A stretch of 64,000 nucleotides of DNA. Source: Bacteriovoracaceae bacterium (GTDB lineage: Bacteria; Bdellovibrionota; Bacteriovoracia; Bacteriovoracales; Bacteriovoracaceae). Below, one piece after another: positions 5,831-9,250 of this stretch (its first letter is position 1; each line of letters starts with the position of its first letter). The stretch spans positions 1-64,000 of the forward strand of contig JABGXW010000134.1 of NCBI GenBank assembly GCA_018675575.1. The letters are read 5' to 3'. Below the pieces are notes generated by a model. The model had not been told where the DNA came from and did not search any database. It saw only the letters and a program-made list of their open reading frames with translations. The translations under genes were made by a program, and so were the position numbers.

Positions 5831-5858
5831 TTGACTTCTATTGAAAATCATCTATTTT
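5831..5858 (+). promoter_or_regulatory. Sigma-70-type promoter of the leader ORF / ABC / DUF1854 unit
   Basis: TTGACT at 5831-5836 is followed by a 16-base spacer and TATTTT at 5853-5858. It lies directly after the previous gene and about 30 bases before the Shine-Dalgarno sequence of the 39-codon ORF. Confidence 0.45.
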
Positions 5859-5898
5859 GTAAACATTATCAATAATCAAATCTCAAAGGAGGTCTGAA

Positions 5899-6018
5899 GT
5901 GAGCAATATGACATTCATTTCAAAAGAGCTGAAAAGCTACGGACTTCTTCTGACGATACCAACAGAAGAGTCCCAGTCGGGACTGACACCGGGATTTCTA
6001 GTAAAAACTAGAGATTAA
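5899..6018 (+). CDS. 39-residue leader peptide or small peptide
   Basis: A GTG at 5899 lies 6 bases after a near-perfect Shine-Dalgarno sequence, AAAGGAGG, the strongest in this stretch. An in-frame ATG follows at 5908. The peptide begins MSNMTFISKELKSYG and ends SGLTPGFLVKTRD. It has no signal peptide, cysteines or membrane helix. The coding sequence is almost wholly occupied by hairpins that can pair in alternative ways (5941-6015). That suggests translation of this ORF controls RNA folding, as in leader-peptide attenuation. It could instead be a translated product or exported peptide of the ABC transporter downstream. Confidence 0.5.
   Translation: MSNMTFISKELKSYGLLLTIPTEESQSGLTPGFLVKTRD
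5941..6015 (+). promoter_or_regulatory. Mutually exclusive hairpins inside the leader ORF
   Basis: Hairpin A pairs 5941-5952 with 5963-5973 (11 pairs, one bulged T, 10-base loop). Hairpin B pairs AGTCCC (5969-5974) with GGGACT (5979-5984) across a 4-base loop. A and B share bases 5969-5973, so they cannot form together. Hairpin C pairs 5994-6002 with 6007-6015 (9 pairs including one wobble, AAAA loop) just before the stop codon. A ribosome on the 39-codon ORF would melt A, then B, then C. Confidence 0.5.
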
Positions 6019-6058
6019 AAAGTCACAAACGTTAGCAAATTTTAAAACTTTAACAAAC

Positions 6059-6105
6059 AAAGTTAGACAGAACTGAATATTACATTCAAGTTCATCTGAC
6101 TTTTT
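6059..6105 (+). terminator. Possible attenuator hairpin in the leader
   Basis: An imperfect inverted repeat pairs about 6059-6078 with 6084-6103 (AAAGT-AGA-GAACT-GAAT against ATTC-AGTTC-TCT-ACTTT). It is followed by TTTTT within 6101-6105. It lies between the 39-codon and 87-codon ORFs and could end transcription in the leader under one condition. The mismatches make it weaker than the operon's final terminator. Confidence 0.4.
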
Positions 6106-6116
6106 AACCTAAACCT

Positions 6117-6147
6117 TTGATTTCTACACATGGAAATCAATTTTATT
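6117..6147 (+). terminator. Second terminator-like hairpin in the leader
   Basis: TTGATTTC (6117-6124) pairs perfectly with GAAATCAA (6133-6140) over an 8-base loop and is followed by TTTTATT. The stem is AT-rich, so it may be weak or act as an RNA processing or stability element. It lies 18 bases before the Shine-Dalgarno sequence of the 87-codon ORF. Confidence 0.35.
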
Positions 6148-6173
6148 AACTTTATAAATCTAATGGAGGATTT

Positions 6174-6437
6174 ATGTACGCGAAATTTTTATTTAAAGAA
6201 TCGTTTTTGGTCGAGTTTAGTTCTCTATTAGAGGGAATGAAGATGGTTTTGAGCAGTAGCTTAAAATTATTAAAACTCTTTTATCAACCGCTTTTCAGAT
6301 GGGTATTTGTCTTGTTTAAGTGGCCAGTACTGGTCAAAAGACAATCACCAAATGAAAGGCCTGAACTTGTAGAGTTGGAAGTTTCGAGGTGGAGTGGACA
6401 TTCTCCACACTCGCCAGGACAGCTCTATTTTAGATGA
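6174..6437 (+). CDS. Small cationic, partly hydrophobic protein upstream of the ABC exporter
   Basis: The 87-residue protein starts at an ATG behind a strong ribosome binding site (TGGAGGATTT). Residues about 20-55 are hydrophobic and basic (SSSLKLLKLFYQPLFRWVFVLFKWP), amphipathic rather than a clean membrane helix. The C-terminus is polar and ends SGHSPHSPGQLYFR. No family is recognised. It sits between a structured leader and an ABC exporter, 34 bases before the exporter gene. It may be the exporter's substrate, a small partner, or a second leader ORF. Its start is well supported; whether it makes a functional protein is not. Confidence 0.5.
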   Translation: MYAKFLFKESFLVEFSSLLEGMKMVLSSSLKLLKLFYQPLFRWVFVLFKWPVLVKRQSPNERPELVELEVSRWSGHSPHSPGQLYFR

Positions 6438-6471: not shown

Positions 6472-8751
6472 ATGAATTTAGAATTAGAAAGAAAAAATAC
6501 AATTAGTAAATATTACGAACAGGAATCGTCATTGCCAAAAAAAATTAAAGAAAATCTCTTAAATATTGAGATAGAACTCTATGGACTTATTGATTTAAAT
6601 GAGTCCATGGAATTTCAAAGTTCTTGGCTTGTACTTGGAGAAAATACGCTTTACCTATTTAAAAAGAATGGTGAGGAACATGTATTAGATACGAAATTAC
6701 TTATTACAAGTATTTCGAGAATTAAAGAACATCAATCTTTGAGTTCGTCTAAATATGAGTTCTTAACAGCTGATGATATGCCTCCTTTGCTATCAGTACA
6801 TTTTACTGGCAGGCAAAAGATTGTTTTAGGTCATATTAAATACCTCATTGAAACTAAAATGAAGAGTGTTAAATATAATAAACCTAAAGACTGGAATCCT
6901 GATGTGGAATATCAAAAAGCAGTACTAAAGCATCTTAATGAGGCGCAAAGCACCCTCTCAGACAAACAGGGGAAAACTTTTTTAAGACTAGTGGGATATT
7001 TAAAACCCTATAAGAAAGACGTTTTTTGGGGAACAGTAGGAGCGATATGCAGTACATTATCAGCTTTGCTTCCAGCTTACTTAACAGGACGTTTGCTTGA
7101 TACAGTTATTAAGCCTTTTCAGGAAGGAGGACTTCAAAAAACTTTAGCAATGAATGCCGCTTGGAGGATATTGGCAGCAATTTTTTTAGTCTTTATATTA
7201 AAGGAAGTCTTTTCTTATATGCGACTTAGTAAAATGTCTTTGATGGGTGAAGATGTTGCAATGGATTTGAGAACTGAACTTTTTTCTCATTTACAGAAGT
7301 TGGGACTAGACTTCTTCGGGCGCAAGCAAACGGGTTCTATTATCAGTCGTGTAAGTTCTGATACTGATAGAATTTGGGACTTTGTAGCATTTGGGATTGT
7401 CGAAGTTGGTATTGCACTAGTTACTTTGATTTCTTTATCTGCGGTTTTGATTACTTTGGATTGGAAACTGGGATTAGCTATGTCTTTACCGGTTCCAATT
7501 CTTTTATTAAGTATTTATTACCATGGAGAAAGGATGCAAAAGCTTTTTATTAGAGCATGGAGAAAATGGTCAGACTTAACAAATGTTTTATCTGACACAA
7601 TTCCAGGTATTCAAGTGGTCAAGGCATTTAATCAAGAAGAAAAGGAAATAGATCGCTTTAATCAGTCAAATGATGATGTTACTGGTGAGTTTAAATCTGT
7701 TCATTATGCTTGGACTAAATTTTGGCCATTATTGATGATGGGAATTCAAGTCATAGTGATGACGGTATGGATTTTAGCAATTCCGCGGTTAATTTCTGAG
7801 GAAGGTACCACTGATTATTTATCATTGGGAACATTTGTATCATTTCTTCTATATGTAACTATGTTTAGTCAACCTATCGAAGTCATCGGTCAAATGGCAA
7901 GAATGTTAAACAGAGCTTTGAGTTCAGCTTATCGGATATTTGAAATTTTAGATACAAGTCCATCTTTAAAAAATGGTCGAACTATACTGAAGAAAGGTGA
8001 GCTAAAAGGTGATATTGAATTTAAAAATGTTTCATTTAGTTATGATGGAGTTCGAAAGGTGGTTTGTGGAATAAATTTTCGTGTTTTACCTGGAGAGATG
8101 ATTGGACTTGTGGGTTCTTCGGGGGGGGGGAAATCTACTATTACAAAACTTATCGCAAGATTTTTTGATGTAAGTACAGGGGAAATTATTATTGATGGTA
8201 AGAACTTAAGAGAATTGGAAGTAGGAAGTTTTAGGAAACAAGTAGGAATGGTCTTACAGGACCCATATTTATTTCATGGAACACTTGTAGATAATATTCG
8301 TTATGGATTGCCAGATGTTTCTTTGAAGAAGGTAATTGAAGCTGCTAAAATTGCAAATGCTCATGAGTTTATTATGAGCTTTGAACTTGGTTATGAAACG
8401 ATTGTAGGAGAAAGGGGGCATACCCTTTCTGGAGGTGAGCGACAAAGGATTTCAATTGCGAGAGCAATACTTCACGATCCCAAAATTTTAATTTTGGATG
8501 AGGCAACCTCTGCTGTTGATACTGAAACTGAAAGAAAAATTCAAGATGCTCTTGATAAATTAATTGAGGGGAGAACCGTATTTGCTGTCGCTCATAGGTT
8601 ATCAACATTAAGAAAAGCTAATCGAATCTTTGTCGTGGATAAAGGTGAGATCAAAGAAACGGGAACTCATAATGACTTATTGAAGAAGAAAGATGGGCTT
8701 TATAATAAACTCCATCGAATGCAACAAGAAATGAGTGAAAACTTTGTTTAA
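6472..8751 (+). CDS. ABC exporter (fused permease and ATPase) of the DUF1854-associated type
   Basis: The 759-residue protein has an N-terminal extension of about 150 residues, which may be PH-like (FQSSWLVLGENTLYLF). Six transmembrane helices follow at about 180-460, then an ATPase domain: Walker A GSSGGGKST at 548-556, signature LSGGERQ, Walker B LILDEAT and H-loop AHR. Half-transporters of this form dimerise. Database relatives with this N-terminal extension are, to my knowledge, annotated as cyanophycin-metabolism-associated ABC transporters and occur beside DUF1854 proteins, as here; no cyanophycin synthetase gene is present in the window. A 7-bp hairpin (6439-6457) immediately precedes the ribosome binding site AAAGGAG. 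Confidence 0.85.
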   Translation: MNLELERKNTISKYYEQESSLPKKIKENLLNIEIELYGLIDLNESMEFQSSWLVLGENTLYLFKKNGEEHVLDTKLLITSISRIKEHQSLSSSKYEFLTADDMPPLLSVHFTGRQKIVLGHIKYLIETKMKSVKYNKPKDWNPDVEYQKAVLKHLNEAQSTLSDKQGKTFLRLVGYLKPYKKDVFWGTVGAICSTLSALLPAYLTGRLLDTVIKPFQEGGLQKTLAMNAAWRILAAIFLVFILKEVFSYMRLSKMSLMGEDVAMDLRTELFSHLQKLGLDFFGRKQTGSIISRVSSDTDRIWDFVAFGIVEVGIALVTLISLSAVLITLDWKLGLAMSLPVPILLLSIYYHGERMQKLFIRAWRKWSDLTNVLSDTIPGIQVVKAFNQEEKEIDRFNQSNDDVTGEFKSVHYAWTKFWPLLMMGIQVIVMTVWILAIPRLISEEGTTDYLSLGTFVSFLLYVTMFSQPIEVIGQMARMLNRALSSAYRIFEILDTSPSLKNGRTILKKGELKGDIEFKNVSFSYDGVRKVVCGINFRVLPGEMIGLVGSSGGGKSTITKLIARFFDVSTGEIIIDGKNLRELEVGSFRKQVGMVLQDPYLFHGTLVDNIRYGLPDVSLKKVIEAAKIANAHEFIMSFELGYETIVGERGHTLSGGERQRISIARAILHDPKILILDEATSAVDTETERKIQDALDKLIEGRTVFAVAHRLSTLRKANRIFVVDKGEIKETGTHNDLLKKKDGLYNKLHRMQQEMSENFV
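8121..8130 (+). repeat. Poly-G(10) tract within the Walker A codons of the ABC exporter
   Basis: Ten consecutive G residues encode the end of Ser550 and Gly551-553 of the P-loop. It is the longest G run I saw in the window and stands out in an AT-rich gene. Synonymous glycine codons could have broken it. A slip of one base would truncate the ATPase. Confidence 0.9.
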
Positions 8752-8761
8752 AGGAGAGAAA

Positions 8762-9250
8762 ATGACGACAGAATTATTAGATATTCGTTTATTCTTAAAA
8801 GAAAATAATCAGTTATATCTATCAGGATTAAAAGATATATTCGAAAATAAAGAGATAGAAGTAAATATTAAAAAATGTTTCCCTTGGTCACATCAAGATA
8901 AGTTTCTTTCTTTTCGAAATAAGGATGATGAAGAAGTTTTGCTACTTCCTGATATTAATCAATTAGATGACAGGTCTAGAGAGGATCTTCTTCAATTTTT
9001 ATCACAATCTGATTTTATGATGAAAATAACGGATATTATTTCTATTGAAGAAGAAGTGGAGCTACGAAACTTTAAGGTGATTACAAGCTCAGGGATACGC
9101 AACATCCAAACAAAACTAGATGATTGGCCGAAAATACTAAAAAATGGATCTGTTATGATTCAGGATCTATGCGGAGATACATTTGTGATTTTAAGTATAG
9201 AACATTTAGAATCTGCCGCTAGAAAATTAATTGGAACTTACGTTAGTTAA
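8762..9250 (+). CDS. DUF1854 family protein
   Basis: The 162-residue cytosolic protein starts at the ATG at 8762, directly after AAAGGAGAG; an upstream in-frame ATG at 8735 lies inside the ABC gene and is unlikely. The C-terminal two-thirds match DUF1854: LDDRSREDLLQFL at about 68-80, FKVITSSGIRNI at 104-115, GSVMIQDLCGDTFVI at 129-143, then SAARKLIG. The family has no defined biochemical role and is typically encoded beside the ABC transporter type found immediately upstream here. It probably partners or regulates that exporter. A strong terminator closes the unit 22 bases downstream. Confidence 0.75.
   Translation: MTTELLDIRLFLKENNQLYLSGLKDIFENKEIEVNIKKCFPWSHQDKFLSFRNKDDEEVLLLPDINQLDDRSREDLLQFLSQSDFMMKITDIISIEEEVELRNFKVITSSGIRNIQTKLDDWPKILKNGSVMIQDLCGDTFVILSIEHLESAARKLIGTYVS

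Follow-up and report, generated by a model that had tools for sequence, protein, structure and literature searches.

A conserved leader ORF predicted to mask its own start site upstream of an ABC exporter-DUF1854 operon in Bdellovibrionota

In the ppe2 leader of Mycobacterium tuberculosis, the start of an upstream open reading frame (uORF) is masked by an anti-TIR, which an anti-anti-TIR can capture in turn, and translation of the uORF is required for downstream expression (PMC11260477). The toiL uORF of topAI-yjhQ in Escherichia coli senses translation stress and has been linked to Rho-dependent termination (PMC12121999). In the attenuators of the erm type and of the trp/his type, a 1:2 and a 2:3 pairing of regions oppose each other around a leader ORF. 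The Shine-Dalgarno sequence (SD) of the leader peptide itself is reportedly masked by distal leader RNA in the E. coli trp leader.

The leader described here lies in a window of 64,000 nucleotides from a Bacteriovoracaceae bacterium (contig JABGXW010000134.1; all the features discussed are on the plus strand), where a uORF precedes genes for a small protein (ORF2), an ABC exporter and a DUF1854 protein. The start region of this uORF (region 1) can pair with a segment of the same ORF (region 2) to form a clamp, P1. As in ppe2, a start region appears to be masked by a sequence that has a competing partner, in this case only in the window's family; however, the ppe2 switch is driven by a B12 aptamer, whereas no aptamer turned up here and the anti-SD consists of codons of the uORF itself. 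With toiL, the locus shares a leader ORF, alternative RNA pairing and a putative translation-status signal, but toiL masks the site of the downstream gene, while here the predicted masking concerns the uORF's own site and the SD of ORF2 (SD2) has no covarying partner. The 1:2 versus 2:3 arrangement around a leader ORF recalls the erm and trp/his attenuators, from which the locus differs in that P1 covers the leader's own SD. Like the trp/his type, it has mutually exclusive structures and a short leader ORF at the 5' end, with a strong SD and a promoter and predicted to be translated, but it lacks a conserved intrinsic terminator and a run of regulatory codons. The masking of a downstream start that characterizes the erm type was not found and, judging from the sequences, is unlikely.

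The leader ORF and the operon it precedes

The uORF occupies positions 5899-6018 (39 codons, GTG start, TAA stop). A previous sequence-only reading of the window had pointed to it as the ORF with the best SD of the area, and its SD, AAAGGAGG at 5885-5892, is indeed the strongest nearby. A promoter-like sequence (TTGACT-16-TATTTT, 5831-5858), with the start codon 40 nt past the -10, puts the uORF at the very 5' end of the predicted transcript; TTGAC is found upstream of the leader in 24 of 37 relatives. The uORF frame is open in all 37 of them, without a single stop in 1473 codons as against 136 and 103 stops in frames 1 and 2, which argues strongly that it is translated. Its length varies between 24 and 67 codons, and the C-terminal sequences of the peptides are unlike even between close species. 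From the start to region 2 the peptides are enriched in Asn (2.4-fold) and Ile (1.9-fold), and after region 2 in Cys (4.2-fold); no run of one residue or of a regulatory codon common to the leaders was found in the uORFs.

C directly follows the uORF stop in 26 of the 37 leaders, against 14% in background genes (Fisher p 2e-10, a value that serves only as a guide, related leaders not being independent). Since this base is common in the leaders and C after a stop is a weak termination context, slow termination at the uORF stop may contribute to the mechanism. A U at +4 is considered to favour termination in bacteria (PMC6764699). In the window itself (6016-6019, stop and next base) the stop is followed by A, not C.

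ORF2 (6174-6437, 87 codons) encodes a small protein with no match in Pfam or NCBIfam. The protein is conserved in most relatives, where it has 53-91 residues, often with an HPPS or HPPN end in the window's family and an [AV]xPG motif elsewhere. It is followed by the genes for an ABC exporter with an extra N-terminal domain (6472-8751; Pfam ABC_membrane and ABC_tran) and for the DUF1854 protein (8735-9250; PF08909, 2.2e-25); the operon contains no peptide-modifying enzyme. The best NCBIfam matches of these two proteins, NF052233 and NF052234, respectively, belong to a cyanophycin-associated pair with the same two-gene set. However, their scores are under the cut-offs (623 of 880 bits and 53 of 150 bits) and a link with cyanophycin was rejected, as no cyanophycin synthetase (cphA) was found in the window's genome; in the family, cphA occurs in 8 of 129 genomes, two of which carry the ABC gene (2 of the 28 ABC-bearing genomes). 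We found no paper naming DUF1854, in agreement with the sequence-only reading, to which no description of such a leader for DUF1854 loci was known.

Orthologues of the ABC protein were detected in 28 of the 129 genomes of the window's family and in 42 of 369 sampled genomes of the phylum. Wherever the upstream sequence was long enough, in 37 of 37 loci, a leader ORF with a strong SD precedes the ABC-DUF1854 operon; these loci represent at least four families of Bdellovibrionota and include eleven loci from other families (f7, f11 and f21) with 46-54% ABC identity. A further record (L050) matches L035 exactly in leader ORF and ORF2. One locus (L007) keeps the leader, ~124 nt before the ABC start, without any ORF2 found in between, which makes the exporter the likely target of the regulation.

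Pairing of the start region with codons of the same ORF

The most important pairing of the leader, missed in the sequence-only reading, joins region 1 (5887-5900), which comprises the SD, the spacer and the start codon, to region 2 (5936-5949), an anti-SD within codons 13-17 of the uORF. In the window, P1 pairs 5887-5896 with 5940-5949 and 5898-5900 with 5936-5938 (-15.4 kcal/mol) and, plus six outer pairs, it is the minimum-energy form of the uORF segment folded alone (z -4.4 relative to shuffles). The RNA from 5880 to 6175 reaches -76.1 kcal/mol, compared with -49.3 +/- 4.3 for dinucleotide shuffles (z -6.3, 0 of 200 as good). An inner hairpin that contains the start codon (UGAAGUGA/UCAUUUCA, 5896-5921) is seen in the window fold, and one like it also folds in both of the remaining species of the genus (L002 and L003).

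Complementarity of region 1, made up of the SD, the spacer and in many cases the start codon, to a region 2 inside the ORF recurs in nearly all leaders, for example as GGAGGUAACCAU/GUGGUGACCUCU, GGAGAUAG/CUAUCUCU and AAAGGAGGCAUACCGUG/UGCGGUUGUUUCCUUUU. In a gap-free alignment of the two arms from 36 sequences, which excludes the weak case L168, 69.6% of the cells are paired, and 60 cells are changed on both sides against 31.0 +/- 4.5 in shuffles. The covariation score is 0.308, compared with 0.188 for shuffles and at most 0.180 for slid partners. Because the arms had been placed by complementarity, part of the contrast with the slid control is built in, as is, to a smaller extent, the choice of region 2. 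Most weight is carried by a swap test on fixed downstream windows (0/20000) and by the comparison with other genes, P1 having a mean of -14.8 kcal/mol in the uORFs and of -9.6 in other AGGAGG genes (p 4e-8). When P1 partners were swapped between species, the pairing weakened from -14.7 to -10.7 kcal/mol (z -9.4, 0/5000, n=37); the same partner-swap gave z -5.2 for the other families alone and z -4.6 when the SD core was omitted and only the spacer/start half considered. Across the leaders, the predicted probability that the SD is unpaired is 0.14 on average.

On the strength of these comparisons, matching mutations preserve P1 in relatives, a sign of an undescribed switch under the control of the ribosome. 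Covariation in relatives had been set beforehand as the check that could refute the leader; it is strong for P1, so the leader survives. With a covariance model built from P1 (R1), the window leader is recovered (26.4 bits, E 0.0019 for a search of the window), as are the strongest leaders; applied to whole genomes, the model is too weak to claim other loci. Rfam gave no match to the leader.

Region 2 falls in one codon frame (nYC-UCN, the hyphen marking the codon boundary) in 25 of the 26 leaders of the family, a count hand-corrected for L031, L033, L042 and L037, in which the SD core was mis-anchored, and its distance from the start ranges from 35 to 86 nt. Such a constant frame at a varying distance, with in-frame indels only, is what a translated ORF predicts. 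The sole exception is the window itself, where region 2 is in a different codon frame. The V-x-[TA]-S of the peptides was considered as an arrest motif and rejected, since pairing with the SD explains it and exchanges among T, A, V and I leave the pairs intact. A leader peptide can thus owe its amino-acid motif to the need to pair with its own ribosome-binding site.

The alternative partner of region 2 and the spacer

Region 2 is also the 5' arm of hairpin A (5941-5973), in which it pairs with a region 3 located by best pairing. P1 and hairpin A share bases of region 2 and are, therefore, mutually exclusive. Swapping partners between regions 2 and 3 gave z -5.1 in the window's family and z -4.8 without close relatives, and a non-significant z -1.0 in the leaders of other families (n=11). 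The control swaps tested (region 1 with region 3, region 1 with the spacer, region 2 with upstream sequence, and SD2 pairings) were null. A covarying downstream partner of region 2 is thus supported by sequence comparison within the window's family only. P1 is more stable than the 2:3 pairing by a median of 5.5 kcal/mol, the reverse being true in L002, L003 and L142.

The sequence-only reading had proposed hairpin A and a hairpin B (5969-5984) as alternatives, followed by a hairpin C (5994-6015) at the end of the uORF. All three can form, C being seen in the window fold, and A and B do share 5969-5973. However, hairpin B is not conserved and covariation between regions 3 and 4, which form it, is unsupported (z -1.5), so we rejected it as the alternative state; the conserved alternatives are P1 and A.

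The uORF stop is followed by a G-poor, A/C/U-rich linker (6019-6058 in the window). In the first 40 nt after the stop, the 37 leaders have a G content of 0.11 and a C/G ratio of 1.67, a composition compatible with a Rho entry site, albeit far from proof of one. The linker often holds ACATTT/TTTACATTT and then hairpins, with ACATTT within 75 nt in 15 of 37 leaders. Folding of the spacers downstream of the uORF indicates structure (mean z -2.0). Of the two terminator-like hairpins claimed in the sequence-only reading, both exist as hairpins: one at ~6059-6103 (-14.3 kcal/mol) with a weak U-tail (TTAACC; TTAACCTAA), and an A/T-rich one at ~6118-6139. Their role as terminators fared less well, as neither was called by a terminator scan with a loop limit of 8 nt, and a permissive scan of 26 leaders detected hairpins with T-rich tails in only 12 of them, mostly weak, at differing positions and some inside the uORF. 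We rejected conserved intrinsic terminators, which are absent in most relatives and weak in the window. SD2 showed no covariation with the spacer, the uORF or the ORF2 start. Since, in addition, the uORF stop lies 79-293 nt upstream of ORF2, direct masking of the ORF2 SD or simple coupling seems unlikely.

A candidate translation-gated leader and its alternatives

The comparisons establish, at the level of sequence, the maintenance of the uORF, P1 and the family-level downstream partner of region 2. We consider it fairly probable that together they make up a self-masking, translation-gated leader ORF, which the ORF2-ABC-DUF1854 mRNA would carry at its 5' end. We favour such gating over classical attenuation by intrinsic terminators because terminators are not conserved and the SD of the next ORF has no covarying partner. 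For the kinetics, the signal and the downstream readout of the switch, we infer the following course. The pairing of region 1 with region 2 would close P1, which most leaders are predicted to adopt as their ground state, and hold off ribosome loading on the leader ORF, which would be licensed during transcription or by the 2:3 pairing. Since the polymerase passes region 1 some 40-95 nt ahead of region 2, the nascent RNA might receive a ribosome before P1 closes, and pairing of region 2 with region 3 (hairpin A in the window) would free region 1. The 2:3 pairing would be favoured by a ribosome held up between the two arms of P1, and a leader free of ribosomes would close rapidly. Occupancy of the uORF could in this way determine how strongly the exporter operon is expressed, in the simplest case by denying Rho or RNase access to an untranslated leader. 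More tentatively, and with distinctly less confidence, we suggest that self-masking leader ORFs of this kind might form a phylum-wide, aptamer-free class in which the anti-SD resides in the codons of the silenced ORF and the RNA directly senses the supply of ribosomes or translation stress, perhaps adjusted by the weak stop context, and passes this on to the exporter operon.

The uORF might instead encode a functional peptide, which would serve the exporter as substrate or partner or would act in trans like peTrpL, P1 only regulating its synthesis. The maintenance of the ORF across the phylum and the Asn- and Ile-rich N-terminal and Cys-rich C-terminal parts would agree with this, but the peptides vary from 24 to 67 codons with C-termini that differ between close species, their central V-x-[TA]-S follows from the pairing with the SD, and the operon lacks a peptide-modifying enzyme, all of which makes a functional peptide unlikely. 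Classical ribosome-mediated attenuation, in which the position of the leader ribosome would decide on an intrinsic terminator near 6105 or 6147, was the mechanism put forward by the sequence-only reading. Its first half, a conserved leader ORF with exclusive structures, was borne out, and both the structured spacers and the stable hairpin with a short T-run at 6059-6108 of the window speak for the remainder. Yet, given the scattered and mostly weak T-rich-tail hairpins in fewer than half of the leaders scanned, the lack of covariation between regions 3 and 4 and a uORF without a run of one codon, we see the intrinsic-terminator mechanism as rather improbable.

A strong SD near the 5' end can protect an mRNA, and P1 with its strong SD, close to the predicted transcript start, could be a 5' stability element without any switching. 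This would leave unexplained the maintained reading frame as well as the covarying alternative partner that region 2 has in the family, and we give it little credence. Very improbable, in our view, is control of the uORF start site by a ligand-binding riboswitch or a protein-bound operator: regions 1, 2 and 3 do reproduce the TIR/anti-TIR/anti-anti-TIR layout of M. tuberculosis ppe2 (PMC11260477), but there is no Rfam match, the predicted 5' UTR is too short for an aptamer, and the stretch that separates region 1 from region 2 varies in both length and sequence.

The translation-gated leader would be a cis-regulatory RNA/ORF element with covariation across at least four families of Bdellovibrionota, absent from Rfam and fixed to one uncharacterised exporter operon in predatory-type bacteria. 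Its two short arms offer a concrete, mutable handle on leader-ORF regulation in these bacteria and the leader provides a starting point for tracing the stimulus of the ABC-DUF1854 system. In another phylum, inspection by eye of the region upstream of the ABC-DUF1854 pair of Gemmatirosa kalamazoonensis revealed no clear SD-uORF-P1 leader. A 43-codon ORF (L160:2301-2432) without a clear SD is located there upstream of the pair, and its product contains VLVSTRL.
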